NCBI RefSeq assembly: GCF_900890425.1
Contig: NZ_CAAHFG010000004.1
Span: 974,330-1,038,329 of the forward strand
Direction of reading: 5' to 3'
DNA: 64,000 bases
Source: Pontiella desulfatans
GTDB lineage: Bacteria > Verrucomicrobiota > Kiritimatiellia > Kiritimatiellales > Pontiellaceae
A program made the position numbers and the translations under genes. This document shows, piece after piece, positions 9,607-53,243 of the stretch (positions are counted from its first letter, which is position 1; each line of letters begins with the position of its first letter). The notes beneath the pieces were generated by a model that saw nothing but the letters and a program-made list of their open reading frames with translations, was not told where the DNA came from and made no database searches.

Positions 9607-9662
9607 GACAACCATTGACCAAGTACGAATAACCACCTCGGAACGAGGCGCGGGAGATTGGG

Positions 9663-9953: not shown

Positions 9954-9997
9954 ATTTAGAGGGCGACGCTCCGTCGGCGCTTTCCCATCCGCAAAGA

Positions 9998-10089
9998 GCG
10001 GTGACGCCGTCACCGCAGTCCAGGGCGGCTCCGCCGCAAAACGTGGCGCGGACTTTCCAGTCTGCGTCAGGCAGGCAGGAAAGCCTGCC
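9998..10089. repeat. short perfect hairpins between convergent genes
   Basis: GCGGTGAC-GCC-GTCACCGC (9998-10016) and the GGCAGGAAAGCCTGCC stem (10074-10089) lie between the orphan antitoxin and the GH16 stop. The second has a degenerate relative at 16544-16567. There is no T-run, so they look more like dispersed repeats than classical terminators. Confidence 0.55.
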
Positions 10090-10098
10090 CCACATTTG

Positions 10099-17328: not shown

Positions 17329-18348
17329 ATGAAAAAGCAGATAACCATTCGTGATATTGCCGAGAAGACCGGGTTCTCGTTCCAGACCGTGAGCCGGGTG
17401 CTGAACGGCAAGGCGCATCTCCACAAGGCGGCCACCGTCCGCAAGATCGAGAAGGTGGCCAGCGAGATGGGCTACGTTCAAAACCTCTTCGCCAAAGGGA
17501 TGCAGAGCGGCAAGACCTATTCGGTGGGCCTGATCATCGATCCGTTCGTCGATAGCTTCACCGAGGAAATCTTCCGCGGGGCGCACGACGAACTGATGAA
17601 ACGCAATTTCCTGCCGATCCTGCTGATGCACAACCAGGATGGCCAGGACGAACAGCTGGTGCAGCGCCTGGCCGAACGGCGCGTCGAGGGCTTGATCATC
17701 CGCCCCTATGTGGAGCGCATGGACGAGGTTTCCGCCGCCGTCGAGCAGCACCAGATGCCGGTGGTTTCGGTGGACTATGCCCTCACCAGTGAAAAGAAAT
17801 TCGACTTTGTCGGCACGGCCGACGAACACGGCGGGCAGCTGGCCGCCGAGCATCTGCTGGAGCTGGGCCATCGGCGCATGGCCTGCCTGTTCACCGACAC
17901 CGAGAGCCTTCAACTGCGCAAGCGTGGCTTTGAATATGCCGTCTCCCGGGTCGAGGGTACGGCCATGGTCGGGCTCGAAGGCTGGAACTTCTCCGACGAT
18001 GAGCCCAACCAGCGCAAAATCATGGAGCTGCTTCAGCGCGCCGATGCGCCGACGGCGATTTTTGCGGGCGGCGACTACATGCTGCCCAGCATCTACAAGG
18101 CGGTGCATGCCTTGGGCATCACCATTCCGGACGATGTTTCCGTGGTCGGGTTCGGCGACGAGGAGTTTTCAGAATACCTGATTCCGCCCGCAACGACGCT
18201 GCACCAGGACGCCTACGAAATCGGCGTGCAGGCGGCGCAGCTCGTTATCGACCGCATAGAAAACAAGGACCGCCAGGTGCCCGTGCGCCAGTTGCGCTTC
18301 GAGCCGCATCTGCTGACGCGCGAGTCCACCGCTCGTCCAAAAGACTAG
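17329..18348 (+). CDS. LacI-family transcriptional regulator
   Basis: The 339-residue protein has the LacI helix-turn-helix at residues 6-25 (TIRDIAEKTGFSFQTVSRVL), the hinge region KVASEMGYVQN, and a periplasmic-binding-protein-like effector domain (VGLIIDPFVDSF; VDYALTSEKKFD; GHRRMACLFTD; PTAIFAGGDYM; VVGFGDEEFSEYLIPPATT). It would repress catabolic genes until a sugar ligand binds. Four near-palindromic sites in the window share the geometry expected for such a dimer, one immediately before this gene. The ligand is unknown. The transcript likely ends at the terminator at 18363-18393. Confidence 0.93.
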   Translation: MKKQITIRDIAEKTGFSFQTVSRVLNGKAHLHKAATVRKIEKVASEMGYVQNLFAKGMQSGKTYSVGLIIDPFVDSFTEEIFRGAHDELMKRNFLPILLMHNQDGQDEQLVQRLAERRVEGLIIRPYVERMDEVSAAVEQHQMPVVSVDYALTSEKKFDFVGTADEHGGQLAAEHLLELGHRRMACLFTDTESLQLRKRGFEYAVSRVEGTAMVGLEGWNFSDDEPNQRKIMELLQRADAPTAIFAGGDYMLPSIYKAVHALGITIPDDVSVVGFGDEEFSEYLIPPATTLHQDAYEIGVQAAQLVIDRIENKDRQVPVRQLRFEPHLLTRESTARPKD

Positions 18349-18362
18349 TTTCATGGTTTGCC

Positions 18363-18393
18363 CAACGGGTGTTTCATGCACCCGTTGTTTTTT
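18363..18393 (+). terminator. intrinsic terminator after lacI
   Basis: CAACGGGTG (18363-18371) pairs perfectly with CACCCGTTG (18379-18387) over a 7-base loop, followed by six T (18388-18393). The ribosome site of the GH86 gene begins only 4 bases later, so the stem could also act as a 5' attenuator or stabiliser of a GH86 read-through message. Confidence 0.85.
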
Positions 18394-18406
18394 GAAAGGA
18401 AATGTT

Positions 18407-21000: not shown

Positions 21001-22963
<1,963 letters not shown>

Positions 22964-25134: not shown

Positions 25135-27018
25135 CTACGATCCATTCTCCAGCAGTTGCCGTCCCTTATCTGTGAGTCGGTATTTTTGTTTGCTGCTGCG
25201 GGGTTTGTCGGGGATGGTCATTTCCACGAGTCCATCCGTAAGTAGCGGATTCAGCACTTGGTTCCTGAACTTGGTGCGGTCGGTGCGCCCGGAAATTTCC
25301 ATGAGCGCGCCAATCGCGTTTTCTTCCCTGCATTTAACGAGGATATCGACTTGATCCCGACTTAGTCCCGACTTAGTCCCGACATAGTCCCCACTTGGTT
25401 TCGACTTGGTGCCTTTTCCGGTTACTTGGGGGGTGACTTGTGCCTCGACTTGGTGCCGACTTGGTGCAGACTTGGTGCCTTTCCCGGCGACTTCCCCGGT
25501 GACTTCCCCGGTGATTTCGGGCGATTCGTTTTCGAGGAGGGTTAGGCCTTTGGCGGTGAGGCGGTATTTTTGCTGTCGGCTCCGGGGTGTTTCGGGGATG
25601 GTGTATTCCATTAGTTCCAAGGCTCTTAGGTGCGGAATAATGGCGCGTAGGTTGCCGCTGAGGGTCTTGTGCCCGAGCACGGTGGCAATGTCGCGCGAGG
25701 AGAGCGGCTGCATCCGACAGGCCTGCAAAATGCGCAATGCGACTTGTGCCTCCACTTGTGCCTGACTTGTGCCTAACTTGTGCCTAACTTGTGCCTCTTC
25801 TTGTGCCTCCACTTGTGCCGACTTGGGGGGTGGCGCCTCTTTTTCCGCCGTCAGCGGGAGGGTCAGCTCGAAGCCGTGGGCGGTTTCCTTGAAGATAGGT
25901 TTTGCGCCGTTGGTGTAGAGGGGCAGGTATTTATTGATGTTGGTGACGCCGGAGCCGAGCTGGTCGAACCGTCCGAGCTGGATCATGAATTTGCAGATGG
26001 TCGGGTTCTTTGAAAACGGGCGCAGGTTTTGCGGGGTGATTTCGCCGAAGTGGTGCTGGGTGCAGGGATTGTCGAGGATGACTTTGTCGCGGTAGATCAT
26101 CAGCCGCGCGGGCGCGCCGCCCGTGTATTCGCGGTGGGAGATAATGTTGGAAAGGGCTTCGCGGAAGATTTTGTCGCGCAGGCTGATCCGCATGTCGCCT
26201 TCGAGGTGAAAGGGATCGTTGAGGTGCTTTTCCACGAATTCCATCATCTGGTCGTAGGCGTCGATCAGGTTGGTGTAGATGAGGACGCGGTCGTCGTAGC
26301 GGTCGACATTGTCGCGACGGAGCAGGCAGTCGAACTTGTAGGCCGGGGCGGCCTGCTGAATGGCCTGGTCGGTGCCGAACATCAGGATGGCGGCGAGGGT
26401 CAGGTGGTGTTGACCTGTCTCTTCGGTTTGTGTGTAGAAGCCGCCGATGCGGAGCATCTCTTCGTCGCTGAGGCCGATCCAAGGGTGCTTCGAGTTGTAG
26501 GAGCGCATCAGGCGCCGGGCACGGTCGAACAGTTCCGGGCGCAGGTCGTCCATCGTGGCAAAGGGCAGGGTGCGCTGTTCGGTAAAGAGGCCCAGCTTGC
26601 GGTTGATCAGTCCGGCGAGCTGGTGCGTGCCCTGCACGCGGTAGTCGCCGTCTTCGCTGCGCAAAATAATGTTGCCCCCGGTTTTGTGGAGCTGCGAGCT
26701 GAGCGGTACCTGCACGGCAATGATGGTTTTTTCGTCGATCTCGAAGGTCTGCGGGAAAAGCAACCAGGGCGGATCGACCTTCTGGGGATTGTTGGAGAGA
26801 TTGGCGAGGTCGGCTTTCATCCTTTCCGCCGCAGCGGGATCGACGCCTTTAATTGCGCCATCGTCGGCCACCCCGAGAAAGATCGTGCCGCCATCGGTGT
26901 TGAGGAATGCGCATACGGTTTCAAACAGGTTGCGCGGCAGGTGTTCGCGCGCCTCCTTGAATTCGCGGTGCAGCCCTTCGCCCTCCGACAGGTCGTCTAA
27001 AACTTGGTTTAGGTTCAT
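25135..27018 (-). CDS. AlbA_2/HATPase_c_4 regulator-like protein
   Basis: The 627-residue protein resembles the group often annotated as RecG-related transcriptional regulators. An AlbA_2 (Schlafen-like) domain covers about residues 10-135 (EGLHREFKEA, NTDGGTIFLGVADDG). A HATPase-like domain follows (about 270-370, REALSNIISHREYTGG; LGSGVTNINKYLP). Winged-helix segments sit at the C-terminus. Between them are low-complexity linkers (QVEAQ, GTKS, TGEV) encoded by 11-bp tandem repeats. It has no helicase motifs. Role unknown, possibly regulation or phage response. The start at 27018 replaces an implausible extension to 27201. Confidence 0.75.
   Translation of the reverse strand: MNLNQVLDDLSEGEGLHREFKEAREHLPRNLFETVCAFLNTDGGTIFLGVADDGAIKGVDPAAAERMKADLANLSNNPQKVDPPWLLFPQTFEIDEKTIIAVQVPLSSQLHKTGGNIILRSEDGDYRVQGTHQLAGLINRKLGLFTEQRTLPFATMDDLRPELFDRARRLMRSYNSKHPWIGLSDEEMLRIGGFYTQTEETGQHHLTLAAILMFGTDQAIQQAAPAYKFDCLLRRDNVDRYDDRVLIYTNLIDAYDQMMEFVEKHLNDPFHLEGDMRISLRDKIFREALSNIISHREYTGGAPARLMIYRDKVILDNPCTQHHFGEITPQNLRPFSKNPTICKFMIQLGRFDQLGSGVTNINKYLPLYTNGAKPIFKETAHGFELTLPLTAEKEAPPPKSAQVEAQEEAQVRHKLGTSQAQVEAQVALRILQACRMQPLSSRDIATVLGHKTLSGNLRAIIPHLRALELMEYTIPETPRSRQQKYRLTAKGLTLLENESPEITGEVTGEVAGKGTKSAPSRHQVEAQVTPQVTGKGTKSKPSGDYVGTKSGLSRDQVDILVKCREENAIGALMEISGRTDRTKFRNQVLNPLLTDGLVEMTIPDKPRSSKQKYRLTDKGRQLLENGS
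25347..25478. repeat. 11-bp tandem repeats (CGACTTGGTGC type) in coding DNA
   Basis: Six head-to-tail 11-bp units at 25347-25412 (CGACTTGATCC, CGACTTAGTCC twice, then diverging to CGACTTGGTGC), and three more at 25446-25478, lie inside the AlbA_2/HATPase gene. Since 11 is not a multiple of 3, successive units are read in rotating frames. Confidence 0.8.
25742..25819. repeat. ACTTGTGCCT tandem repeats in coding DNA
   Basis: Seven copies of an 11-13-bp unit based on ACTTGTGCCT run head to tail. On the coding strand GGCACAAGT is read as AQV, HKL and GTS in turn, producing the linker QVRHKLGTSQAQVEAQV. Loss or gain of one 11-bp unit would shift the downstream frame. Confidence 0.85.
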
Positions 27019-27150
27019 TCCCCGTTGCCTTCCCTGTGCTTCAAGTTTGTTGCGTCGTATTCGACCGTGAAACCATACCTGCCGGGCGCGGGGGAAACAA
27101 AATAAAACACGCGGAATGGGGCCGTGTTTCCTTTGCTCGGGAATAATACA

Positions 27151-27165
27151 TTTGGCCAGTTGACA
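27151..27165 (+). promoter_or_regulatory. shared promoter-region 15-mer
   Basis: TTTGGCCAGTTGACA lies 57 bases before the GH86 lipoprotein start and is repeated exactly at 48198-48212 before the VWA-like gene. Its end is a consensus -35 hexamer (TTGACA). No convincing -10 follows at 17 bases. Confidence 0.4.
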
Positions 27166-27221
27166 GTTTGGGGCTTCCTCTGCGATTGTTTGCGTTCTCA
27201 TTCTAAAAGGAAGGCAGAAGT

Positions 27222-34151: not shown

Positions 34152-34366
34152 CGTGTCCCCTTGTCTGCCTGGTTGCGCTCTATCAACAGCGTCCACCGGC
34201 GAATTAGTTAATAAAGGTTACATATATGCCATCTGCCGGGGCGCAGGTCAAGTGCGCAAGGGGGGATGTTGAGGAAAACTGCGGGGCAATGGAATCTGTA
34301 AAATGTGCAAAACAGGGGTTTTGTGAAATATAATCCATTTGTGCAGGAAGACCGGCGCCCCTATAA

Positions 34367-34381
34367 TGTTTACGTTCGCAA
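34367..34381 (+). promoter_or_regulatory. 15-mer shared by two secreted-protein promoters
   Basis: TGTTTACGTTCGCAA here is identical to 36693-36707. Both lie 80-100 bp before paralogous secreted-protein genes. The AATGTT at its left edge overlaps the half-site of the LacI-type operators. The rest of the 319-bp intergenic space shows no gene. Confidence 0.5.
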
Positions 34382-34470
34382 CAAAGGCCTGGCATCGACC
34401 GTGGTGGTCGAGATGCGAGAGAGGCATTCATGGTGAGAGGTCTTTGCGCGAGGCATCGTGGAGAAGGAAC

Positions 34471-36390
34471 ATGAAAAAATCAGCATTGGCATTGGCACTG
34501 GCATTCGGCGCATCGATGGGACATGCGGCGGTGGTTTTCGAGGATGACTTTTCTTCCTATGCGGAAGGGCAAACGATTAACGGCGTGAACTGGAATCCGA
34601 AATGGGATGGCAACAACGACCTCACGCAGCAGGACTTGATGACGGCCACGAACGGGTATGTGAAGTTCGACACGTCGATTGCCAAGCGCAACTATTTTTG
34701 CCCGAGCAAGCATGGGTTTAGTGTGGCGAGCAACAAGTATGCGGTGATCGGTTCGGACTTCCGCTATTTCCACGAACCGGGCGGCAACATTACCGAGCCG
34801 CCGAACAAGGCCAACCAAGGGGCGTTCGGGTTGCTGATCAGCACAACGCCAACCTGGTGGGACGGCGTGAACAAGTCGTTCCAGATGTGCAACCGCGGTT
34901 CGCACATGGGCAACAAGGTTCCGGTTGATCCTTGGCAGGAGGGATGGCAATCGCACTTGACCACGTTTGGCGTCGATACCACGGCCGGGGGCTTCAGCGA
35001 TTGGTTCCGCATTGAATGGACGGTTGTTCAGGGAGAGATCAACTATGAGGCGACGGCCAAGCTGTTCAAGGCCAATGGCGACGGCATCTATACGGCCACG
35101 ACGGTGGATCTGGGCATCACGAACGGGGCAACCCTCTATGCAGGTTTTTCGCCGGGCTGGAACGATATCAACACGAACATTGCCCAAATCAGCAAGTTCA
35201 GCGAAGTCGATATGGATAACTTCAAGGTCGAGGTGGTCACCATACCGAATACACGAACCATCTTTTCCGACGATTTCGAGAGCGGCAGCTACGTGACCTA
35301 TCCCCTGGTCGCCGATTGGCGGAATCCCGCTCCATGGAGCAAGGCGCTCAACAACCCGTCGGCCTACGAGGTCACGAACGGGGTCATGAAAACCAAGTTT
35401 GGCTACCGGGGCATTGTGGCGGGCGGCAGTCCGGTGGTGGCCGCTCCCGGCGAAACGATCCGCATTGCGTACGATGTCACCATCGATCTCGGCTCCACGT
35501 TCAATACGTACCAGTTGGGCGACTATATGTTTTCACCGGAAGGCGGTGCCTATTTCACCAACTATGTGAATCCGATTCTGAGTTATGACCATGCCCTGAA
35601 TTCCAGCGGGCTTGCGCGCCGGGTTGAATTCAATGCCTGGACGGATGAAGGGAGTTTCCCGAATGGGCGCGTGGTCGTCAACTTGAACGGGGGGAGCCCG
35701 GAATACTATCTGGCCGAAGATCTCGGTTTGGCGCCGGGAACGGGCGCCGACTTTGTCTCCGATCCATTGCGGATGGCCTATGAATACACCAAAAGACCAA
35801 CGGTTGGGCTGTGGGAATGCGTAACGCTCATCTCGAACATGCACTCGGCCGCCATGCTGACCACCACCCAGTTGATCTCCCGGGTGGATACCTGGAACGT
35901 GGAGGAGTTTTTCTTTTCCATTCAGAACCCCGAGCTGCCGAGCGGTGGCGGATGGGAAATCGATAATCTGGTGGTGCAGGTGTCGTCGGGGCCGGACATC
36001 ATCCTCGTAGGGTTCGAGGCCTGGGCCGAGGGCTATGGCCTGCTGGGCGGGGCCGACGACGACCAGGATGGCGACGGCCTCAGCAACCTCTATGAGTATG
36101 GACTCAATGGCGACCCGACCAATGCCGCCAACCTCGGAACCTTGCCGCAAATGACCTATGGCGCCGACCATAGCGTCAGCTATACCCATCCGTTGCTGCT
36201 CGATTCAAAGGCCGGCATTTCCTATGTGGCCGAATGGCGGGACAACCTGAGCTTTGGCGATTGGTCGAGCGTGTGGCTGTTCGATTCCAACTATCCAGCC
36301 GCCGACGAGGAGTACAACGAGCGGTTGCTGAAGCTCGATGGCCTGGGCAAGGACCGTCTCTTCATGCGCTTCAGGATCACCCAGCCCTGA
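34471..36390 (+). CDS. large secreted protein with novel N-terminal module
   Basis: The 639-residue protein has a signal peptide (MKKSALALALAFGASMGHAA). Then comes a module of about 230 residues (FEDDFSSYAEGQTINGVNWN; NYFCPSKHGFSV; QGAFGLLIS; MCNRGSHMG; LYAGFSPGWND) shared with the proteins at 36786 and 42275. A second beta-rich region (about 265-515, IFSDDFESGSYVTYPLVADW) follows. The tail contains a Ca-binding repeat (DDDQDGDGLSNLYEYG) and a final segment with YVAEWRDNLSFGDW. No catalytic family was recognised. The beta-sandwich character suggests polysaccharide binding or an unclassified lyase/hydrolase. GGAG precedes the ATG by 8 bases. Confidence 0.8.
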   Translation: MKKSALALALAFGASMGHAAVVFEDDFSSYAEGQTINGVNWNPKWDGNNDLTQQDLMTATNGYVKFDTSIAKRNYFCPSKHGFSVASNKYAVIGSDFRYFHEPGGNITEPPNKANQGAFGLLISTTPTWWDGVNKSFQMCNRGSHMGNKVPVDPWQEGWQSHLTTFGVDTTAGGFSDWFRIEWTVVQGEINYEATAKLFKANGDGIYTATTVDLGITNGATLYAGFSPGWNDINTNIAQISKFSEVDMDNFKVEVVTIPNTRTIFSDDFESGSYVTYPLVADWRNPAPWSKALNNPSAYEVTNGVMKTKFGYRGIVAGGSPVVAAPGETIRIAYDVTIDLGSTFNTYQLGDYMFSPEGGAYFTNYVNPILSYDHALNSSGLARRVEFNAWTDEGSFPNGRVVVNLNGGSPEYYLAEDLGLAPGTGADFVSDPLRMAYEYTKRPTVGLWECVTLISNMHSAAMLTTTQLISRVDTWNVEEFFFSIQNPELPSGGGWEIDNLVVQVSSGPDIILVGFEAWAEGYGLLGGADDDQDGDGLSNLYEYGLNGDPTNAANLGTLPQMTYGADHSVSYTHPLLLDSKAGISYVAEWRDNLSFGDWSSVWLFDSNYPAADEEYNERLLKLDGLGKDRLFMRFRITQP

Positions 36391-36667
36391 TTCGGGCCGG
36401 ATGAGGTTTTCGCAAGACGTTTAATGTTCAGGCGCTGGATTTCCATAAATGAACATCCGAATACCTGTTTGGGTCAAAAGAGTTGATTGTGGGCGAAAAG
36501 GGCCCTGAATGTTAGTGATGACATGGAATTGGCGCTCATTTGCGTGTAATTACACCTTTTGGATAGGTGGAGGGCGCGTTTCCTGAAACAGCAAAGAAAC
36601 GCTCTATTGTTTAAGCAAAACGGTTGACCCGATGGTATTGGACAAAAAAAACATGAAAAAACGTTTG
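36391..36667. other. intergenic region, nothing recognised
   Basis: This stretch opens the 395-bp gap before the next gene. It is AT-richer than its neighbours, with runs of A near 36642-36660 and TTGACC at 36624, but no clear -10 and no reading frame. The operator-like sites begin right after it. Confidence 0.5.
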
Positions 36668-36707
36668 CATGTTAAGGTAAACATTACTACGTTGTTTACG
36701 TTCGCAA
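36668..36707. promoter_or_regulatory. LacI-type operator plus shared 15-mer
   Basis: CATGTTAAGGTAAACATT (36668-36685) repeats the ATGTT-six bases-AACAT geometry. Seven bases on is TGTTTACGTTCGCAA (36693-36707), the exact 15-mer of 34367-34381. Together they mark the control region about 80-120 bp before the gene at 36786. Confidence 0.6.
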
Positions 36708-36785
36708 ATAGGCCGTGTCCTGTCCCGGTAGGCCAGGGCGCATTTCAATGTCCAGCAAGGGCGGCTCAATTGAGGAGAACATGAG

Positions 36786-39185
36786 ATGAAAAAAGCAGCT
36801 ATATTACTGTCACTTGCCTTGGTTGCAGGGACTGTCGGCGCTCAAGTCATTTTTGAAGATGACTTCAGTTCGTATAGTGGTTCCATTAATGGGGCCAACT
36901 GGAATCCCAAGTGGGCCGCTGGTACTGATCAGCAAAACCTGCTGATGGCGTATGATGGCATCTTGGAGTTTGATACGACCATTGCGCAGAGAAACTACCA
37001 TTGCCCCAGCAAGACGGGATTCACGGTCGGAACCAATGACGTCTACATTATTACGGACGCCCGCTATGTGTATGAAGGCGGGGGTAATATAACGGCCAAT
37101 TTGAACAAGGGCGCGTTCGGCCTTTATTTTTCGCAAACGGATCTTTGGTACAGTGGTCCCGATAAAAGTTCTCCGATGTGCAACCGGGGCGCTGCGGTGG
37201 GTCACAATCGGATCGATGGTAGTGGTGTTGATGGATGGAACACTCACTCGAGCTTAGGTGTCAACACAGCCAATAACGAAACCAGCAACTGGTTCAAGGT
37301 AGTCAGCCGCCTGGTTTCTTCGAATTCCACGATCTGGGTTCAGGCCTTGGTTTACGATGTGGATGATACCTATCTGGAATCCCCGGTTTCCACCGGGGTG
37401 ATCTCGGATTCCGGAGTGGCTGACGGAACAACGATCTATGCTGGTTATTCACCTGGATACAACAACGTAGGGAACACCAACATTGCTTCATTCAGCAAGT
37501 TTACCGCAGTCCACTACGACAACTTCTACGTCGGCAGCAAGCCGGAGTTTGGAACGCCGGCGCCGTTCTCGGTTGACAACCTGCAGCTGCGCGGGGGCGC
37601 GGCCAAGATGGTCTTTGGCGGCACGACCACTAAAGGCGCCATCACCAACCACCCGGACTTTACGTTGAGTGCAACGTACTATGCACCGGCCATCGGCGAG
37701 CCGCTGGATATTCCTTTGCGCTGGGACGGATTCGACCTCGATGGCGATGGAACCAACGACTATGTCGACTTTACCCTCCGGGCGGTCGGAGCGGTTGAGA
37801 AAGCCGGGCTACTTGGAAATGGATTTGGTGATGGCTACACATTCAATGCCACCAACGAAGCGGTGACCTTTACGGTTACGGATATTACCCTCAGCGATGG
37901 AACCCGCGGATCCGTCACCTTTGATGGCTTCACCGGCGGTGCGACGATGGGCGCAGACTGGGGAGATAAGACCTATGAGTTCTATGCGGACATCAACGGC
38001 CTAACGGTTGGTGGGCAGGAAACCAATAACAGTGTAAAGACATGGCATACCGGGCACGATGTTTTCACCAACGAAACCATGGTCGTCGACAATATCGTGT
38101 TGTATTCCAATGAGTATACCGGAAGCCTCTGGGTGCGTGAGTTCGACCTCGATTTCACCTGGAGTGGATACGAGCCTCCCGAACCGCCGAAGACGCTGAC
38201 CATTAACGACCTGTATACGCGTCCGGATACGAACCAGTTTGTTTATGGCGGTTCCTATGAGGGTGTCATTGAGTTGCAGCCGGATGCCCCGGTCATGCAG
38301 GGAGCACAATACGCCAACCCGATTGAGATCCCGATCCGCTGGAGCAATCTCAACCTGGACGGCGAGGGAGGAACCGACGACTGGATCGACTTCACCCTTC
38401 GGGCAGTTCCGGCCGCTGAAGCCTCTGCCGTCTGGCAAAATGCCGGATTCGGGGATGGTTGGAACATTAATACGAATGGTGAGGGTCTCACCTTTACGGT
38501 AGCGGATGTTTCTGTTGGTTCGAATACTGCGGGTTCCGTTAAGTTCGACGGCTTCACTTCGGCAGCAGTCTTGGTTTCCGACTACTCTGATCCGAAGAGC
38601 TGGGATGTGAGCATCGATATCAATGGGATCACCATCAGCTCGGTGGTAACGAATCAGGGCGGTAGCGGAAACACGACCATGAAGGTTGCTGAAAATGCCT
38701 TCACTAACCAAACGCTGCTCGTCGATAATCCTGTCATTCCCGACCCCTCGGATGAGTTCTATGGGGAGATTGTTGTACGCCACCTGGACATGATGTTCAC
38801 CTGGACTTCGGAGGAAGCGCCGGCTGGCGGTTACGACCTGTTTGCCTGGGAGTATGAACTGAGCGGTGTCAAGACCGACGACAAGGACGGCGATGGCCTG
38901 AACGATTGGGGCGAATATGTCTTCGGTGGCCACCCGGATGGCGGCGAGCCCGTTTGGGGAATGCAGCCGGTGCTCGATCCGGCAACCGGTGACTACACCT
39001 TCTATCTGGTTGGCGACAACTCCGTTGTTGCGCATGTGGTAACCACGGATAATCTGATTCATGGCACATGGACCACGAACCATACCGAAACCGTGATCCT
39101 TACGGATGGGGTTGTGGTTCCGTACACCGATGATACCCTGGGCACATCCGCCACGAAAAAGTTCATCAAGCTGCTGGTTGAATAA
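36786..39185 (+). CDS. large secreted protein: shared module plus duplicated domain
   Basis: The 799-residue protein has a signal peptide (about 1-19) and the shared N-terminal module (FEDDFSSYSGSINGANWNPK; NYHCPSKTGFTVG; KGAFGLYFS; MCNRGAAVG; IYAGYSPGYN). Two homologous domains of about 200 residues follow (258-455 and 470-675); each has IPLRW/IPIRW, DYVDFTLRAV/DWIDFTLRAV, GFGDG, TFTV and GSVTFDGFT/GSVKFDGFT. A Ca-binding block (DDKDGDGLNDWGEYVFGGHP) and a terminal strand region ending KKFIKLLVE complete it. The enzyme family was not recognised. GAGGAG lies 7 bases before the ATG, and a hairpin with T-run separates it from the next gene. Confidence 0.8.
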   Translation: MKKAAILLSLALVAGTVGAQVIFEDDFSSYSGSINGANWNPKWAAGTDQQNLLMAYDGILEFDTTIAQRNYHCPSKTGFTVGTNDVYIITDARYVYEGGGNITANLNKGAFGLYFSQTDLWYSGPDKSSPMCNRGAAVGHNRIDGSGVDGWNTHSSLGVNTANNETSNWFKVVSRLVSSNSTIWVQALVYDVDDTYLESPVSTGVISDSGVADGTTIYAGYSPGYNNVGNTNIASFSKFTAVHYDNFYVGSKPEFGTPAPFSVDNLQLRGGAAKMVFGGTTTKGAITNHPDFTLSATYYAPAIGEPLDIPLRWDGFDLDGDGTNDYVDFTLRAVGAVEKAGLLGNGFGDGYTFNATNEAVTFTVTDITLSDGTRGSVTFDGFTGGATMGADWGDKTYEFYADINGLTVGGQETNNSVKTWHTGHDVFTNETMVVDNIVLYSNEYTGSLWVREFDLDFTWSGYEPPEPPKTLTINDLYTRPDTNQFVYGGSYEGVIELQPDAPVMQGAQYANPIEIPIRWSNLNLDGEGGTDDWIDFTLRAVPAAEASAVWQNAGFGDGWNINTNGEGLTFTVADVSVGSNTAGSVKFDGFTSAAVLVSDYSDPKSWDVSIDINGITISSVVTNQGGSGNTTMKVAENAFTNQTLLVDNPVIPDPSDEFYGEIVVRHLDMMFTWTSEEAPAGGYDLFAWEYELSGVKTDDKDGDGLNDWGEYVFGGHPDGGEPVWGMQPVLDPATGDYTFYLVGDNSVVAHVVTTDNLIHGTWTTNHTETVILTDGVVVPYTDDTLGTSATKKFIKLLVE

Positions 39186-39219
39186 AGCGCGGCTCCTTGT
39201 GAACTAAGCAACTGGAAAG

Positions 39220-39243
39220 CCCCGCCTCCGTGCGGGGTTTTTC
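39220..39243 (+). terminator. intrinsic terminator inside the secreted-protein run
   Basis: CCCCGC (39220-39225) pairs with GCGGGG (39232-39237) over a 6-base loop, followed by five to six T. The next gene starts 19 bases later, so this probably reduces rather than abolishes downstream transcription unless that gene has its own promoter. Confidence 0.75.
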
Positions 39244-39261
39244 AACATCTGGAGAAAATCG

Positions 39262-42219
39262 ATGTCCAACGAGGGAATGAATAGAATGAAAAAGAAAAGC
39301 GTGCTTCCCATCCTAATCCTCGTTGCAGCACCCGTGTTTTCCGCGCAGGTGCTGGACATTGCGTTTTCTTCTGCGGAAGGGTTTGTGGACGATGCTCCCA
39401 TCGACGGCATCCAGGGATTCAACGCACAGAATCCGTGGGTCGCCGGCGATGTTGCAGGAATCGGCCATGCCACCTTGCCGGGCGGCTGGTCGCGCGCGCG
39501 CAACTATGCCGGTTTTACCTTGGAGGTCGGGGCGGCAGTGGTGATCGAAACCACCTTCCGCCTTTCGACAACCAACGGTTGGCCGAATACCGATGTCTAT
39601 TACGTCGGCTTTGCCGAGGAGACGGTTCACTCCGGATTGGCAACACCTTCCATCGGCTCGAAGATCCATTCCAACGGCGATGGCAGTTTTTGGGTCGGCA
39701 GTTCGGATGCCGGTCAACAGGTCGCCGTTCCCGCCGCCTATTCCAACGACTGGATCAAGTTTACGCAGACCATCACGCGCTCCGCGGTCTCGAACGAATT
39801 CATCGGAACGGTTGCGGCCACCAACCTGACGGCGGGGATCGACTTGGGAACCACCTCCGCATCCTGGGCGCAATCGACTGCCGACGGTTCGTGGGGCGGG
39901 GCCATGAATCCCAGCTTCCGCGGCATCCACAGCGGCAGCGTGCGAATGGAGATCGACCACTGGACGGTCTCGACCCTCGATGCCCCGACTCTGCCGCAAA
40001 CGGTGGTGGTGAATGTGGATGCCACCCGTACGCGCTCCATCGGCGGCATAAATTCGCTCGACCGCGAAACCTGGTTCGGCGTCTACCACGAAGCCGGGTA
40101 CGGAACGCGTGAGCTGGATGGAAAAACCATCGACGAGTGGATTCTTGAAGAGGGCCGCATGCTACCCTCGCGCGGTACCGTGAGTTATGATTCGTATTGG
40201 GAACCCGGCGGCTATGTCGATTATACCGAAGACCCGAACCGGCCCGGCTACATCAATCCGATCGAACTGACTAACAACATTGGCCCGGTGAGCCGCTACG
40301 TTACGGCCAAGGCGTTGGATCCAAACCATAAAACCATTTTTTCAGGTTCTGGCCACGGGCGCTATCCCGATTTCATGTGCTGGGATCCGGCCGATACGCA
40401 TGGCATCAACACCGTCTCGAACCACGCCGCCCACGGCGAGGCGGTGGTGACCGCCCACTGGCGCATCCAGGATGCCGGTGGTCTGATGCCGCACTGGTAC
40501 GAGGTGATGAACGAGAGTTCCATCCAGAACAACTTTGGTTGGTTCTGGGATTCCGATGCGTGGGACAAACTGGCCGAATTCCACGTCGGGGTGGCCGACG
40601 CCATGCACGCTTCATCGTTTTCAAACACGGTCAAAGTGTCCGGGCCGACCGATGCCTATCCGTTCCGCGACGGCAGCAGCGGCGATTTTTCCTCGTGGGA
40701 AAACGGCAATAAAAAATTCATCTATCTCACCGAAGACAAGATGGATGCGTATGGCATCCATACCTATGAGCAGATGAATGGCGGAACCGCCTACGACGAC
40801 TATCTCGAACGCTTCGAAATCTGGCATCTCGGTCGCCTGCCATCGTTCCTCGACCTGTGGGAAAACGAACAGGTCAACACCTGGGGCGACACCAAGCCGT
40901 TTGTCTTTTCCGAATACGGCCTGCTCAACAACATTGCCGGCGACACCAACGCCTTCTACCAGATCCGCAGCTGCAACGGCATCTTGCTTTCGTTGCTCGA
41001 CCGCCCCGACGTCGTCGATAAGATGAGCGCCTTCCTGATGTCGTGGGCGCCCTACAGCTGGGATCAAAAACGCGTATTCTTCGCGTCGGACGACAATGGG
41101 ACGAACATCTATAAAACCAGCTATTTTGAATACCTGCGCTTCTGGCGCGACCTCGACGGCGACTATCTGTTCTCAAACGCCGACTCGCCCCACCTGGTGC
41201 AGCATGCGTTTCTCGATGGCGGCACCAACCTGTTTGTCGTGTTGCAGAACAACTATAAAGACGCCTATGCAATCGACCTGCGGGCCGCGTTGCCCGCCGG
41301 GGCTTCAATGGTCTCCGCGCAAATGCAGCGGCTCTACCATGCCAACAACGATGTCGCGCGCGATCCATTTACCCCGGTCGCCGACCTTGGAAACGTGCTG
41401 CTGGGCGCCGATGAAACGGCCATGTTCAAGCTGGAGCTCTCCGGCATGCCGCTCCTGCCGGTGTGGGATGAATCGAACCACTATGGCGACCGCACGCTGG
41501 TGCCGATGCAGGCCGGCGTGGGCGAGGCCTACGCGATCGACCTGCCGCCGGGCACCACCCATAGCGCCGGCTGGCTCAACCTCGGCCTCTATGCGTTCGA
41601 GGGCTTCAGCAACGGCCTCCAGCAGGTTTCCGTTAATGGAACCGCGTTGGGCAACCTACCCGACCTTTCCTACACCGCCGGCGCGCCGCGCCACTGGGCC
41701 AAGGTTTCGCTCCGTATTCCCGAAGGCGTTTTGCAAGAGGGCTCGAACAGCGTAACGGTCGTGCCCGCCGACGGGGAGCCCTTGATGAAGATTACCTCCG
41801 TCCGTCTGACGTCCGAGCAGGCGTCCGATGCGGTGTTCAATGCCGATCGCGATCTCGACGGCATGTCCGATGCATGGGAAATCGAATACGGTTTCGATCC
41901 CTCCGACTTTGCCGACGGCGCGCTCGATTCCGATGGCGATGGATTCGACAACAGCGCGGAATATGTTTGCGGAACCGATCCGCACGACGACCAGGATTTC
42001 ATCTCCACCATCGGGTTGCCGGAGACCGGTGCCGGATTCAAGGTTTCGTTCGATTCGAAGTCGAACCGCCTCTATGCCGTGGAAGCCACCGAAGATCTGC
42101 AATCGGTTTGGATCGACTTCACCAACGGCATTCCGGGAACGGGCGGCCCGATTGAAATCATCGACGCGGATGGAACAACCAACCGCTTCTACCGCATTAA
42201 AGTGCAGCTTGATCATTAG
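39262..42219 (+). CDS. secreted multidomain GH86 beta-agarase/porphyranase
   Basis: The 985-residue protein has a signal peptide (KKKSVLPILILVAAPVFS) and an N-terminal beta-sandwich (about 30-245, LDIAFSSAEGFVDDAPIDGI). The GH86 barrel contains WYEVMNESSI (acid/base Glu418) and FVFSEYGLLNN (nucleophile Glu551). Beta domains follow, then Ca-binding repeats (DRDLDGMSDAWEIEYG; DSDGDGFDNSAEYV) and a C-terminal domain ending TNRFYRIKVQLDH. ATG 39262 has GGAG at 7 bases; ATG 39286 has GAGGGA at 9 bases and is an equal alternative. The C-terminal domain is homologous to that of the next gene product. Confidence 0.85.
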   Translation: MSNEGMNRMKKKSVLPILILVAAPVFSAQVLDIAFSSAEGFVDDAPIDGIQGFNAQNPWVAGDVAGIGHATLPGGWSRARNYAGFTLEVGAAVVIETTFRLSTTNGWPNTDVYYVGFAEETVHSGLATPSIGSKIHSNGDGSFWVGSSDAGQQVAVPAAYSNDWIKFTQTITRSAVSNEFIGTVAATNLTAGIDLGTTSASWAQSTADGSWGGAMNPSFRGIHSGSVRMEIDHWTVSTLDAPTLPQTVVVNVDATRTRSIGGINSLDRETWFGVYHEAGYGTRELDGKTIDEWILEEGRMLPSRGTVSYDSYWEPGGYVDYTEDPNRPGYINPIELTNNIGPVSRYVTAKALDPNHKTIFSGSGHGRYPDFMCWDPADTHGINTVSNHAAHGEAVVTAHWRIQDAGGLMPHWYEVMNESSIQNNFGWFWDSDAWDKLAEFHVGVADAMHASSFSNTVKVSGPTDAYPFRDGSSGDFSSWENGNKKFIYLTEDKMDAYGIHTYEQMNGGTAYDDYLERFEIWHLGRLPSFLDLWENEQVNTWGDTKPFVFSEYGLLNNIAGDTNAFYQIRSCNGILLSLLDRPDVVDKMSAFLMSWAPYSWDQKRVFFASDDNGTNIYKTSYFEYLRFWRDLDGDYLFSNADSPHLVQHAFLDGGTNLFVVLQNNYKDAYAIDLRAALPAGASMVSAQMQRLYHANNDVARDPFTPVADLGNVLLGADETAMFKLELSGMPLLPVWDESNHYGDRTLVPMQAGVGEAYAIDLPPGTTHSAGWLNLGLYAFEGFSNGLQQVSVNGTALGNLPDLSYTAGAPRHWAKVSLRIPEGVLQEGSNSVTVVPADGEPLMKITSVRLTSEQASDAVFNADRDLDGMSDAWEIEYGFDPSDFADGALDSDGDGFDNSAEYVCGTDPHDDQDFISTIGLPETGAGFKVSFDSKSNRLYAVEATEDLQSVWIDFTNGIPGTGGPIEIIDADGTTNRFYRIKVQLDH

Positions 42220-42225
42220 CGTGTT

Positions 42226-42245
42226 ACCTCAGTGCGCTCTGAGGT
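42226..42245 (+). other. intercistronic hairpin
   Basis: ACCTCAG (42226-42232) and CTGAGGT (42239-42245) form a 7-bp stem in the 55-base gap before the GH16 gene. There is no T-run, so a message-stability or processing role is more likely than termination. Confidence 0.45.
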
Positions 42246-42274
42246 GAAAACGATTTGAAGAGAGCATCGAAAAT

Positions 42275-45186
42275 ATGAAGAAACCAGTTTGGTTGCAGGT
42301 TGCGGTGTTGAGTCTCTTTGGTTTGCAGGCGCAGGCGGCGGTGGTTGTTTCGGACAACTTTTCCTCGTATGCCGATGGCGTAACGCTATCGGGTTCCTGG
42401 GATCCCAAGGTCGATGCCGGTTCGGGGCAACAGGATCTACTGACCGGCCATAACGGCGAGTATGCCGTGCTCAGCGGCCAGGCGAAATCCAACTACCATG
42501 CCCCGCAGCAAACGGGCTTCGCGGTGGGCACGGGGCAACATGCGGTTGTCAGCTCCGACTTCAGGTATGTCTATGCCGGCGGCGGCGACACGACGAACCA
42601 CCTGAACAAGAATGTGTTCGGCCTGCTGGTTTCAACCTCGCCGGATTGGAATGTTGGAACGGATAACGGATTCTATGTGGCCCAGCGCGGCGGCGCCCTC
42701 GGTAGCCGGCTTCCGGATGCCCCTTGGATCGAGGGCTGGGTTCCGCACGGCTCGCTGGGGATCAACACGGCCCATGCGGATACCAGCAACTGGTTCTCGA
42801 TCGAGTGGACGATCCGCGATGCCGGCGGATCGCTCCATGGGCAGGCCACCCTGACGGACGGTGCATCCGTCCATTATGTTTCCAGCGAAGTCGATCTTGG
42901 CCTGGCCACCGGAACGGAGCTTTTTGCGGGGTATTCCACGGGCTGGAACGGCACCGGGCTCGATATTGAAACCTTCGGAAGGATCTCCGAGGTGCACATG
43001 GATAATTTCGAGGTGACGCTGTCGGGAAGCGCCTATCCGTTCACGGATCCCGGTAACGCCGGCGGATGGATTCCCTATGAACCGATGACCGACGAGTTCG
43101 ATGGCCCGGCGCTCGACCCGCGGAAGTGGGAGCCGGTTGGTTGGATCGGCCGCGATCCCGTGTATCATGAATTCGACAATGTTGCGCTTTCCGGCGGCAG
43201 CGCCATCCTGACCACGGACTTGCGCGATGTGCCCTATACAAACGGCAACGGGGAGGTCTATCTATACGATGCCGGATATTTCCAGAGCACGACCTCCCGC
43301 CGCTACGGCTATTTCGAGATCCGTTGCCGCGCCCTCGATTTCCCGATCATGACCACCTGGTGGCTCACCGGCGGCAGCAGCTCGTTCACCCGCGAGATCG
43401 ACATGCTCGAATGCCCGTCCGGGCGCGCGGGCTATGAGGACTATTACAGCTGCAATTTCCACATCTGGAAAACGCCGACGCCGGAAGGCGTTGACGATAA
43501 CGGAGGCTCTTCCATTGCCGATCCCGAGCATTACACCTTGCCGTTCGATATGGTGGACGACTTCCACGTCTACGGCTTCGAGTGGGACAAGGATGAATGC
43601 AAGGTCTACATCGACGGCGCGCTCTACCGGACCCGCGACACCGGAAGCTTTACCGTGGGGCAACGGCTCATGGTTGGGAATGAATTCAACGACTGGTTGA
43701 GCAAGGTGGAGGAGATCAACACCAATCTCCATAAGCTTGGCAACTCGTACGACATCGACTATGTCCGCGCATGGATCAAACCCGAAACCGACACCACGTG
43801 GTATGTGGATGCGGCGAATGGCGACGATGCCAATAGCGGCCTAAGCTGGGGCGCGGCCAAGCAGTCGATTCCTGCCGCCATCGACGAAGCCTACGACGGC
43901 GATTCAATCTGGGTTGCCGGGGGACGCTATCCCGAATACCTGACATTCTACGGCATGCACAACTTGAAGGTTTACGGCGGCTTTGTTCCCGGCGACACCT
44001 TGCTCGAAGAGCGCAACCCGGCAGCAAACCCCGCCCTCATTGAATCGCCGCAGGATGGCTATTCAACGGTCAGCATCAAAGGCACCATCGGATTCCGGCT
44101 GGACGGATTCACGGTTGTGGGCACAACGGCGAGCTACGAACATGGCATCGATATCCTGGGCGTCTGTTCCAACGTTGTGGTCGCCAACTGTCGCATGGTG
44201 GGGCACAACCCGGCCAACGGCGGCGGCAGCGGTGCCTACGTGGATGGGGTCGATGGCCAGGGCCTTGCCCATGTGCGGTTTGAAAACTGCGAGTTTTCCG
44301 GCAACCGGTCTTTCGGCGATCATGCCGGAGGTGCGGCGTTCGGTGCGCGCGACGGAGCGGTGGTGGAGATCGTTGATTCGCAGATCATCCACAACGAAAC
44401 CTCCGGCGATGGTGGTTTCCTTACCATGCAATGGGATGCTGATAACACAACCGTCCGCATGACCAACTGCCTCGTTGCTTTCAATACCAACAAGGCGAAC
44501 CGGGGCGTGATCCGCCACAATTGTGGAACGGTTCAGGTGGTGGATTGCACCTTTGCCGAAAACAGCGATGACGCTGTTGAGTCCGATCAATGGGGTTCGC
44601 CTTCCACCACCATTGCAAACAGCATTCTGATGGAAAGCGGCGGCGAAGGATTCTGGGTCAACCACGCAAACTTTTCCCTGCAGGACAATCTGTTCTTCAG
44701 CAATCCCGGTGGGCACGTAAACTATGGTGGAGACAAAAACACCGAAGCCGCCATCAATGCCTTGGCGCAGGCCGCCGGCAACCGCGTGGCCGATCCGAAC
44801 GATGTTTTGGCGCAAGGATCCGACAGCGATTCCGACCTGCTTCCGGATTGGTGGGAGCTCGCCAACGGCATGCTCCTGACCGGCAACGACTCCGGGGTGG
44901 ATCATGACGGCGATGGACACACCGCCGGCCAGGAGTTCGTTGCCGGAACCGATCCCCATGCCCCGGGAAGCTACTTCGCGGTCGGCGGTCTTGCCGCCAC
45001 GGGCTCTAGCCTAAAGATGTATTTCGAATCGTCCAGCAATCGGGTCTACTCCGTGGAGTCGACAGAGGATCTGTTGGCGGGTTGGACCGAGCTGACCAAC
45101 GGGATTCCGGGTACGGGAAGCCGGGTTGAATTTGTGGATGCGAACGGAACCTCCAATCGGTTCTATCGCGTGAAAGTGGATTTGGA

Positions 45187-45190
<4 letters not shown>
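42275..45190 (+). CDS. secreted GH16 plus beta-helix multidomain protein
   Basis: The 971-residue protein has a signal peptide (residues 1-21) and the shared N-terminal module (20-250; [19 protein letters not shown]). A GH16 domain (about 265-505) has REIDMLE as active strand (Glu374, Asp376, Glu379). A right-handed beta-helix (about 510-830; [38 protein letters not shown]) follows, then Ca-binding repeats ([28 protein letters not shown]) and the C-terminal domain ending [12 protein letters not shown]. Endo-cleavage of galactan plus a second binding or cleaving helix is plausible. Its stop overlaps the next ATG by 4 bases, so the sulfatase is co-translated. Confidence 0.85.
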
Positions 45191-46998
<1,808 letters not shown>

Positions 46999-47078: not shown

Positions 47079-47894
47079 CTAGATCATGAACCGGCGGCGG
47101 ATGAGCATGATCCCGCTACCAAACGCCACCACCAGGCCGAGCGTCGCCGGTTCCGGAATGGAGGAGGTCAGCGTTGCTTCGTCCACCTCCATCTTGGTCA
47201 GATCCGCCGCCGTCGTGAACTGGTATTCCGTACCCATGTTGAGATACCAAATGCTTTTGTCGGCAAGGCTCGGCAGGGTTTGCCCAAGTGAATCATCCGT
47301 CCAGATTACGGAGTCGGTACTGTCGTAGTAGTTGAGCAGGATATCGTATCCACTGGCGGCTTTGGTAATCTTCAATTCACAGGAGAACCAATCGCTCGTT
47401 GCGTTGGTTGGGCTGCCAAGGCCAATCTCCGAGATGTTGTTCCAACCTCCAAACTCCCATGTTCCGTCGGTGGCGTCGATGGCGGATTTCGGGGAGGAAA
47501 TGGCGGATCCCCAAATCTGTCCGGGGACGGCATCGTTGTCCCTGCGTGTCCACATGGCTTTGGCATTATTCCCGCTTGTCCCCGATGTATCGCCCACAAT
47601 GGCGAGCCGGGTCGAGTATTGGTTTGCGTCGGACAATCCGTTCGTGCCAACGGCGATCCTCTGTTTGATCTTTGCCGATACCCAGTCGCCTTCGGCCTGC
47701 GGGGCGGCAACGCCGGTCTGCATGGTCATGAACTGGGTTGCCTGGGTTGTTTCCGCAACTCCCGCACTGGTAGACCAGTTGGCGTTTGCAGACCATCCGG
47801 ACAGGTTGTCCATGGTGTCCGTCACGGTCACCATTTCCGCAAGAGCCGTCGTCGCCGCGATCGCGCCAATGGCCATGGTAAGGTGCTTTTTCAT
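47079..47894 (-). CDS. PEP-CTERM-sorted secreted protein
   Basis: The 271-residue protein has a signal peptide (MKKHLTMAIGAIAATTALA) and a beta-rich body. Its C-terminal sorting signal is IPEPATLGLVVAFGSGIMLI followed by RRRFMI: PEP motif, hydrophobic span, basic end. PEP-CTERM proteins are processed by an exosortase and tied to extracellular polymer. No exosortase is visible in the window. The body (DNLSGWSANANWSTSAGVAE; EFGGWNNISEIGLGSPTN) is of unknown function. AAGGAG lies 9 bases before the ATG. Confidence 0.9.
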   Translation of the reverse strand: MKKHLTMAIGAIAATTALAEMVTVTDTMDNLSGWSANANWSTSAGVAETTQATQFMTMQTGVAAPQAEGDWVSAKIKQRIAVGTNGLSDANQYSTRLAIVGDTSGTSGNNAKAMWTRRDNDAVPGQIWGSAISSPKSAIDATDGTWEFGGWNNISEIGLGSPTNATSDWFSCELKITKAASGYDILLNYYDSTDSVIWTDDSLGQTLPSLADKSIWYLNMGTEYQFTTAADLTKMEVDEATLTSSIPEPATLGLVVAFGSGIMLIRRRFMI

Positions 47895-50159: not shown

Positions 50160-50252
50160 TGGCGTAAATGTGCACATCTTCTGCGCGGGTGTCGGTAGGC
50201 GGTGCGGGCCGCCTCGCGTAAGTTCGATCGTCTATTCAATCAGGAGAGTGTC

Positions 50253-53243
50253 ATGAAACAGGTTTTGGCTTTGGTTTTATTCGTGCTGTTGTCGGCAATG
50301 GTTCAGGCTTCGCAGGATGTCCGCGGGCATTGGCGGTTGGACGACGGCAGGGGAATGCAGATTGCGGATTCATCGGGCAATGGAAATATTGGATTTGCGA
50401 AGAACGTAAAATGGGAACGGGGCGTCAGCAACTCCGGCCTCTTGTTCCAGGGGGAGGGCTTCGTCAACTGCGGGAACGACCCGAGCCTGAACCCGGTCGA
50501 TGGGCTGATGGTGGAGGCTTGGATCAAGCCTTGGAACCTCCCCTACGAAAACCATCCGACCATCGTGAACAAGGAAGGCGCCTACGCGTTCCGCTTTGCG
50601 CCGGGCGGTCGGCTTTCGATGCTGCTGAGCCTGGATGGCGAACCCGTGGAGCTGACCTCGAAAAAATCCGAGTGGCAAAACGGGGTCTGGCAGCATGTCG
50701 CCGCCACGTTCGATGGTTCAACCATCGCCCTCTATGTGAACGGGGAAAAAGATTCCGAGAAGAGCCTCGGCGGAAAAAGGAAGATCGATCGGAGCACCTC
50801 CTACTGCTTCATCGGATCGGTGAATGGCAAAACGCCTTCGCCGGGGCGCATGGACGAGGTTCGGGTTGCCGGTCGCGCATTCTCGGAGGAGGAGGTCATG
50901 CAATCCTACAAGGCCGGCGCATTCGATATGGAGCGGGAGGCAACCAACTTCAGCGCGTTCTTCCAGAAAGAAAACCGGCGGGAACCCAAGGCCGTTGTGC
51001 CCGGGTTCATCTGGGTCGATGCGGAGGATTTCGACGACTATGGCGGCTGGTGGATGGATACGCAGTTTGTGCCGCAGATGGGGTCGCCCTACCTGATTGC
51101 CGCAGGCATCGGTAAGCCGGTGGCCGATGCCCGGACGACGCTCACCATTCCCCAGGCCGGCCCGTGGCGCCTGTGGGTGCGGAGCCGCAACTGGCTGAAG
51201 AGCCATTCGCCGGGTCGGTTCCAGGTCAGCATCAATGGCACGCCCTCGGAGAAAACCTTCGGCATGGCCGACAGTGAGCAATGGGTTTGGCAGCTTGGCG
51301 GAACCTTTGAATTGGAGGAGGGGGAGGCCAGGCTGGCGGTCGGCGACCTCACCGGATGGTATGGCCGGATCGATGCATTGATCCTGACCCGGGATCTTCA
51401 ATATACGCCCCCGATGGAGCTCAAGGCCTATAAGGCCGAAGTGGCGCGCCTGACGGGCACCGATACCTCCGCCGAGATGATGGGCGACTATGAGGTGATC
51501 GTGGTCGGCGCCGGCGTGGCCGGCATCAATGCGGCCATTGCTTCGGCGCGCACCGGGGCGAAGACCGCACTCATCCAGGACCGCCCGATGATCGGTGGCA
51601 ACAACAGCCTTGAGCTGGGCGTGGTGGTCTCGGGGCCTGCCCAGCATAACCATCCCCATTCGCGGGAGGGCGGGCTCAACGAAGAAATCGGCCGGGAGCG
51701 CGCCTATCACTATCACGGCAAGTGGAGCCGGGGCGCCGAAAGCGTCGTGGCCAATGAACCCAACCTGGCCGTGTTCCTCAATACGCATGTGAACGAAGTC
51801 GAGATGGAGGGCAACCGCATTGCCGCGGTGAAGGCGTTCGACATGGTCGATGGCCGGCGCACCCGCTATGCCGCGAAGCAATTCATCGACTGCACGGGCG
51901 ATGGTTGGCTCGGGTATTATGCCGGTGCCGAATACCGCATCGGGCGCGAGGCGCGCGACGAGTTCGACGAAAGCCATGCGCCCGAAAAGGCCGACAACAT
52001 TACGATGAGCGGCTGCCTGATGACCGGCCATACCCTCTCATACAACACGAAGAAAATGGATTCGCCGCAACCCTTCAACGGCCCGGAATGGCTTTGGGAC
52101 CTGACGCCGAACACGGAGTATCTCGAAGCGCGCAATATGTACGAGGGCAGCCACACCTATGGCCGCTGGTGGCATGAAAACCGCGGCGAGGTCGATGACT
52201 TGTGGGATCCGGAAAACGCGCGCGACCAGCTCATTATCCTGAACCTCAGCTACTTCAACTGGATCAAGAACCACTCCAGCCTAAAGGACGACGCCGCAAA
52301 CTATGCGCTCACCATCATCCCGATCGGCAACGCCAAGCGCGAAACCCGCCGCCTCATGGGCGACCATGTCCTGTCGCAGAACGAAGTGCTCTCCGCCAAG
52401 CCGTTCGCCGACCGCGTTGCCGCCGGGGGGTGGTCGCTCGATATCCACAACCCCGAAGGTATCTTTTCCAAGGACGGGCCGTTCGACTTCAACACCCATT
52501 CCCCCATGAACCACATCCCCTTCCGGATCCTCTATTCGAAGAACATTGAAAACCTGCTGTTTGCCGGTCGCAATGTTTCGACCACCCACGTGGCGCTGGG
52601 CACGGTGCGCGTGCAGGGAACCACCGGCGTGATGGGCCAGGCGGCCGGAACCGCGGCGGCCATGTGCGTCGATCGGGGCGTCGATCCGCGCGGACTTTAT
52701 CAAAAGCACATCGGCGAGCTGCAGCAACAGCTGCTCAAGGACGACCAGTATATCATCGGCATGAAAAACGAGGATGCCGCCGACCTGGCGTTGAAGGCCA
52801 CCCTCACCGCGTCCAGCGCAGAGCCAAAGTGCGGGCCTGAAAATGTCATCAGCGGCGTCACCCGCATCGTGGATGAACAGATGAACTTATGGAAGTCCGA
52901 CCCCTCCGCCGCCATGCCCCAGTGGATCGAGTTGGATCTCGCGGAAATGCAAACGCTGAACGCGGTCTACCTCACGTTCGATACCGATTTCAGCGACAAG
53001 CGCCACGCCTCCTGGGAACACAAGGACGACGAGCGGTTTGTTCCGGAGTGCGTCCGCGACTACCGGGTGCAGGTCTGGTCCGGTTCCGGTTGGAAGACCG
53101 TTGCCGACGTGTCGGACAACTACCAGCGCCGCCGCATCCATCGCTTCGATCCCGTCAAGACCTCCAAGCTACGCGTCGTCGTCGATCAAACCAACGGCGA
53201 CCCATCCGCCCGCATCTTCGAGATCCGCCTCTACAATGAATGA
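50253..53243 (+). CDS. secreted LamG / FAD-oxidoreductase / discoidin-like fusion
   Basis: The 996-residue protein has a signal peptide ([20 protein letters not shown]). A LamG-like lectin domain (about 22-225; [52 protein letters not shown]) is followed by a beta region (245-395). An FAD-dependent oxidoreductase (about 412-820) has the Rossmann GAGVAG at 419-424, [10 protein letters not shown], and late [22 protein letters not shown]-terminal F5/8 (discoidin)-like domain covers about 850-996. FAD enzymes are normally cytoplasmic or Tat-exported; this one appears Sec-exported and flanked by sugar-binding domains, suggesting oxidation of a polysaccharide-bound substrate. GGAGA lies 7 bases before the ATG. 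Confidence 0.8.

Follow-up and report, generated by a model that had tools for sequence, protein, structure and literature searches.

The galactan locus and its module proteins

By its gene content, the window (the whole stretch of 64,000 nucleotides of Pontiella desulfatans DNA analysed here) is recognisable as a red-algal galactan locus. It contains three GH86 genes (18353, 27222 and 39262) and further encodes a GH16 enzyme, a GH110-like protein, GH29, GH43 and GH94 enzymes, an MFS sugar transporter, a LacI regulator and several sulfatases. According to excerpts of the description of P. desulfatans F1, a strain with a genome of 8.6 Mbp, kappa-carrageenan supports growth, whereas agar does not (PMC7356697). 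P. agarivorans NLcol2 degrades agar and a carrageenan (PMC10880615). One sulfatase of the window appears to be spread over two overlapping frames (21001-21879 and 21659-22963, +) that cover profile positions 2-118 and then 209-300; this gene is probably frameshifted or reflects an assembly error. The locus also includes an AlbA_2/Schlafen-type regulator or defence-like protein (25138-27201, −). In another protein of the window, exported by its looks (50202-53243, +), an FAD-dependent oxidoreductase is joined to Laminin_G_3 and F5/8 type C domains.

Three proteins, encoded at 34471, 36786 and 42275, start with a signal peptide that is followed by a module of about 235 residues. The first is read from an ATG at 34471 inside the open reading frame 34339-36390 and counts 639 aa from that ATG, while the frames 36786-39185 and 42275-45190 encode 799 and 971 aa, respectively. 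The region comprises the following features:

34528..35253, +: module copy 1, N-terminus of the 639-aa protein (profile match 395.6 bits; five-copy alignment; AlphaFold2 model from 34522-35253)
35251..35982, +: second beta domain of the 639-aa protein, with DDF...IDNLVV ends (phmmer matches itself only; no Pfam family)
35989..36387, +: shared C-terminal domain of the 639-aa protein (profile match)
36840..37556, +: module copy 2, N-terminus of the 799-aa protein (profile match 369.5 bits; 64% identical to the copy at 17972-18703 of the related locus L038)
37554-38192 and 38193-38825, +: tandem duplicated domain of the 799-aa protein (41% identity between repeats)
38826..39182, +: shared C-terminal domain of the 799-aa protein (profile match)
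39262..42219, +: GH86 beta-agarase/porphyranase-type enzyme between the module proteins (PDB 8h97 beta-agarase, E 1e-18; 5ta1, 8e-12)
41842..42216, +: shared C-terminal domain of the GH86 protein (profile match)
42338..43030, +: module copy 3, N-terminus of the 971-aa GH16 protein (profile match 362.6 bits; orthologues in L038 and L042)
43031..43795, +: GH16 catalytic domain with intact EIDMLE (Pfam GH16, 6.6e-11; PDB 8ep4, 5.3e-37; 3juu porphyranase B, 4.8e-21)
43796..44821, +: right-handed beta-helix region of the GH16 protein (Pfam Beta_helix, 5.6e-08, residues 661-813)
44825..45187, +: shared C-terminal domain of the GH16 protein (profile match)
45187..46998, +: sulfatase adjoining the module-GH16 gene, kept in four genomes (Pfam Sulfatase, 1.6e-33)
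47079..47894, −: single-domain secreted protein with a PEP-CTERM-like end, distant module relative (profile E 1e-7; hhalign)

When the genome (8,658,305 bases, six contigs) was queried with module 1, the other four copies were retrieved at E 1e-46 to 1e-60. Three of the five full copies thus lie in the window and two elsewhere. All five align end to end, with 42-46% identity to the first module and 38 invariant columns; judged from this alignment, the likeness is homology, beyond chance. The initial annotation had proposed homologous N-terminal modules of about 230 residues in the three proteins, and the full-length alignment bears this out. Its list of shared motifs was mostly right, but copy 3 diverges further than the replaced Cys motif: [16 protein letters not shown] and VAQRG stand for the Cys motif, KGAFGL and MCNRG, and FAGYSTGWN is found at the YAGxSPGWN position. 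The distant relative encoded at 47079-47894 was linked to the module by hhalign (probability 95.7%, E 9.4e-09 over 82 columns) and has copies of 64-65% identity in L038 and L042; neither this relative nor the C-terminal domain shared by the four neighbouring proteins figured in the initial annotation.

In the phylogenetic tree, copy 2 paired with the L038 copy at 17972, and copy 3 grouped with the modules fused to GH16 in L038 and L042, both with full support. The modules of the GH16 orthologues share 64-69% identity, whereas copies 2 and 3 are only about 42-45% identical to each other or to copy 1. Because copies 2 and 3 pair with copies of other species at full support, these two are old paralogues. 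They also resemble copies of other species more closely (64-68%), which led us to reject a recent tandem duplication of all three.

As noted initially, the remaining domains of the three proteins differ: a second beta domain, a tandem duplicate, or GH16 plus a right-handed beta helix. For the second domain of the 34471 protein, phmmer found no relative in the fetched loci. The duplicated domain of the 36786 protein likewise belongs to no Pfam family, and its two-row fold prediction, with a pLDDT of only 41, was not used. This domain recurs three times in a protein of a distantly related genome (L052 1701-4130), less than 20 kb from module-bearing genes. No catalytic domain was recognised by Pfam in the proteins at 34471 and 36786, which may be pure binding proteins.

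The GH86 at 39262 scored 20.4 bits against Porphyrn_cat_1, under the cut-off of 27, and keeps both candidate catalytic Glu residues, in WYEVMNESS and FSEYG. Its own N-terminal domain (39322-39996, +) differs from the module, belongs to an unlisted family and is also conserved on the GH86 enzymes encoded in L042 and L049. The window GH16 is closest to BpGH16C (8ep4) of the Bacteroides plebeius porphyran PUL. Excerpts of a report on this system describe BpGH16C as an endo-6-O-methyl-beta-porphyranase, link its Gly132 to acceptance of 6-O-methyl-galactose, and have GH16, GH86 and S1 sulfatase working together; no module of the present kind appears in these excerpts (PMC12316285). In the alignment, the window GH16 differs from BpGH16C in having Thr at the Gly132 position, as in ordinary porphyranases, and we therefore predict a porphyran/agaran-type substrate without 6-O-methyl. 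L038, L042 and L049 carry the adjoining sulfatase too, at 80-81% identity and again next to this GH16 gene.

Sequence family and fold of the module

The initial annotation had recognised no family, which held at the sequence level but not at that of the fold. Among the 24 members scanned, none matched any family, CBM or DUF included, over the curated cut-offs of Pfam 2025 (best E 0.024, one member) or NCBIfam 20.0 (best E 0.26, one member). A PHROGs search of the module matched no family, a PDB sequence search with the module and the 24-row profile gave no match, and IMG/VR and plasmid searches found none; by unlisted we mean unlisted in Pfam, NCBIfam and PHROGs. The module is sparse. With the 24-row alignment profile it was found in 7 of 388 Verrucomicrobiota/Kiritimatiellota genomes and in 7 of the 28 genomes of the genus. 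A profile search of genome contigs gave no match with the own-genome module alignment and three loci with the stand-alone module type; these three supplied sequences for the fold alignment. The nearest named relatives found were Pontiellaceae bacterium B12227, an Opitutales MAG and Roseibacillus persicicus.

To assess the fold, the first module (34522-35253) was modelled with AlphaFold2 from only six sequences, three from the window and three from related loci. The model (pLDDT 75, pTM 0.80; weak loops at 92-98 and 129-144) predicts a concanavalin A-like jelly roll, an antiparallel beta-sandwich, over the whole domain. Foldseek returned 134 PDB chains at E ≤ 0.001, with GH16 glucanase, alginate lyases and legume lectins on top and the GH16 laminarinase 3dgt as best match (E 4.6e-07). 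The best VIA-align rows (Z 12.7-13.9, rmsd 3.2-4.3 over 172-205 residues) include the ERGIC-53 lectin, GH43 C-terminal domains, the galactocerebrosidase lectin domain and legume lectins. The module thus shares its jelly roll, over its whole length, with L-type lectins and further binding domains of concanavalin A-like fold (ERGIC-53 CRD among them), but identity is 6-13% and no sequence-level match was found.

GH16 enzymes such as laminarinase 3dgt and the porphyranases fall into the same fold superfamily but possess the motif ExDxxE. Across the 24 rows of the module family, ExDxxE or ExDxE was absent, apart from a single row with an incidental match at residue 7, and GH16-like catalysis by the module was rejected for lack of ExDxxE. 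Of the PL7 motifs RxE[LVI], Q[IV]H and YxKxG, QIH and YxKxG were absent in 24/24 rows; RxE occurred in five of the 24, at scattered positions. In hhalign profile comparisons, neither the neighbouring GH16 nor the second domain of the 34471 protein matched the module significantly, and the domain that opens the 39262 GH86 showed only a weak similarity (E 1e-3, probability 22%). Laminin_G_3 (PF13385) is, like the module, an accessory domain of the concanavalin A-like superfamily and is present at 50202-53243, but no Pfam match to it was seen in the 24 modules, and hhalign with the 50202-53243 domain was not significant. CBM96 is an alginate-binding module (PMC9971899; Pfam PF24517). It decorates the same kinds of multi-domain enzymes as the module, and the two adjoin in several proteins; nevertheless, CBM96 is a separate Pfam family without a match to the module and is found in 17/28 genomes of the genus as opposed to 7/28 for the module.

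Architectures and co-occurrence with galactanases

The module, itself without a GH16 or PL7 motif, is a discrete domain appended to carbohydrate-active enzymes (GH16; CBM96-bearing enzymes). The order module, GH16, beta helix and C-terminal domain is found in the window, in L038 and L042 and, as a frame-split copy, in L049, placing the module N-terminal to GH16 in four species. In L049, from the relative G384, the module-GH16 gene is broken within the module by a frame change (8762-9115 and 9103-10767, +). In other architectures the module is joined to the second beta domain (34471) or to the duplicated domain (36786), each followed by the C-terminal domain, and L038 holds a recombined version with a 36786-type module and a 34471-type middle. 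A protein of about 2150 aa with DUF5060, PKD, CBM96 and the module is encoded in the own genome, with orthologues in three relatives (called by length, module position and tree), and L050 encodes a pectate-lyase-fold enzyme with CBM96 and the module. Single-domain modules with a PEP-CTERM-like end were detected in L006, L043, L048 and L049. They show PEPATLGL...RRRF ends and score 12-20 bits against PF07589, just under the cut-off of 20.7. In other families, distant versions are carried by DUF1800 or TSP3 proteins.

With p-values that ignore kinship (related genomes and orthologous loci were counted as independent), kappa-carrageenase over the cut-off was present in 7/7 module carriers of the genus and 1/21 others (p 7e-6), GH86 in 6/7 and 2/21 (p 5e-4), and CBM96, less selectively, in 7/7 and 10/21 (p 0.016); in the phylum sample, GH86 was present in six of the seven module genomes and in 8/381 others (p 5e-9). 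The sole kappa-carrageenase match over the cut-off in the own genome (C1:1743619-1744431, −) has two in-frame stop codons. Five of the 16 module loci lie less than 5 kb from a GH86, where 0.37 were expected, but because three of the five are one cluster in three species, the independent loci number two or three. The association with galactanases is real but not exclusive. The tie to galactans proposed at the outset thus stands in locus context and genus co-occurrence but not as an exclusive one, given the DUF5060, pectate-lyase-fold and DUF1800 carriers. Carriers without a nearby galactanase are the DUF5060 protein of about 2150 aa (four species), the CBM96 enzymes of L050 and L051, and the DUF1800 protein of L053.

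Proposed function of the module and the shared C-terminal domain

Homology, fold, the lack of recognised catalytic motifs, architectures, neighbourhood and co-occurrence of the module are observed, by sequence or model. The explanation that we favour, and consider probable, is that the module acts as a non-catalytic carbohydrate-binding module, belongs to an unlisted family of concanavalin A-like (L-type lectin/LamG-type) fold and serves the red-algal galactan locus. We infer sugar binding, its specificity and its surface attachment, and the target would presumably be sulfated agaran or carrageenan. Placed N-terminally or internally in an exported enzyme, the module would keep that enzyme on its gel-forming substrate, while a single-domain module with a PEP-CTERM end would be a cell-surface polymer-binding protein. 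The module-GH16 enzyme and GH86 would cut sulfated agaran (porphyran-like) or a related galactan, and the adjoining sulfatase would desulfate their products. A broader version can be put forward only tentatively: the module might found a new CBM family for sulfated red-algal galactans (porphyran/carrageenan), used on enzymes and as exosortase-exported, surface-displayed binders, and might be a PVC counterpart of Bacteroidota surface glycan-binding proteins. The sequence family is real and unlisted, has a familiar fold, probably does a familiar job and merits a Pfam entry.

Concanavalin A-like domains can also act as spacers or protein-protein modules. It is conceivable, if rather unlikely, that the module lacks ligand specificity and serves as a structural spacer or domain-presentation unit of concanavalin A-like fold, spread by domain shuffling in a large exoproteome. 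Such domains are common here, as indicated by unrelated-looking domains with similar DDF/DN ends in the same proteins (the second domain of 34471, the N-terminus of 39262). The presence of the module on enzymes of various families and the L038 joining of a 36786-type module to a 34471-type middle are also consistent with shuffling. However, the single-domain secreted copies have nothing to hold apart, the conserved W, D, R and N residues go beyond a spacer's needs, and the genus distribution tracks galactanases more closely than general CBM96 content.

We give little credence to the idea that the module binds the cell's own exopolysaccharide, a sulfated glycosaminoglycan-like polymer, and anchors exported enzymes and PEP-CTERM proteins in the matrix. 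Pontiella does produce sulfated glycosaminoglycan-like exopolymers, according to excerpts of its description (PMC7356697), PEP-CTERM sorting has been linked to exopolysaccharide (PMC1569441), and the exported enzymes bearing the module are functionally diverse. Yet a general matrix anchor should be more widespread than the 7/28 genus genomes, which are the galactanase carriers, and the C-terminal domain with its at least 150 copies is a better candidate for such a role.

Very improbable, finally, is the idea that the module itself cuts galactans, as a concanavalin A-like superfamily hydrolase or lyase whose active site would be new: GH16, PL7 and PL14 enzymes rank among the top structural matches, acidic and basic residues are conserved (D79, R81, R125 and E140 in the numbering of 34522-35253) and the 34471 and 36786 proteins have no other recognised catalytic domain, but the family lacks ExDxxE and PL7 motifs, one copy stands before an intact GH16 catalytic domain, and E140 is found in just 18/24 rows, within a low-confidence loop of the model. 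The role proposed initially was polymer-binding or hydrolytic; binding is now favoured, whereas hydrolysis is disfavoured because GH16 ExDxxE and PL7-type motifs are absent and single-domain copies exist.

Kiritimatiellota such as Pontiella are extremely rich in sulfatases and glycoside hydrolases and break down seaweed polymers in anoxic sediment (PMC7356697, PMC10880615). Little work has addressed how these bacteria hold gel-forming polymers. With a named, profile-ready binding family, 'hypothetical' proteins could be annotated, probes for porphyran or carrageenan would become available, and enzyme targeting in this group could be tested.

The domain of about 120 aa that closes all three module proteins and the GH86 between them is a more surprising by-product than the module and may matter more. 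It opens with a TSP3-like DxDGDGL start, continues with a beta part and has an end like [12 protein letters not shown]; Pfam matches its TSP3-like start only. The genome holds at least 150 copies, mostly at the very C-terminus. Of the 35 profile matches in the fetched proteins, 23 stop no more than 30 residues short of the C-terminus, and many of the others consist of the TSP3-like part alone. That many exported proteins end in one and the same domain points to a system for sorting or attachment that has yet to be described, with this domain possibly as its sorting or attachment part in these bacteria.
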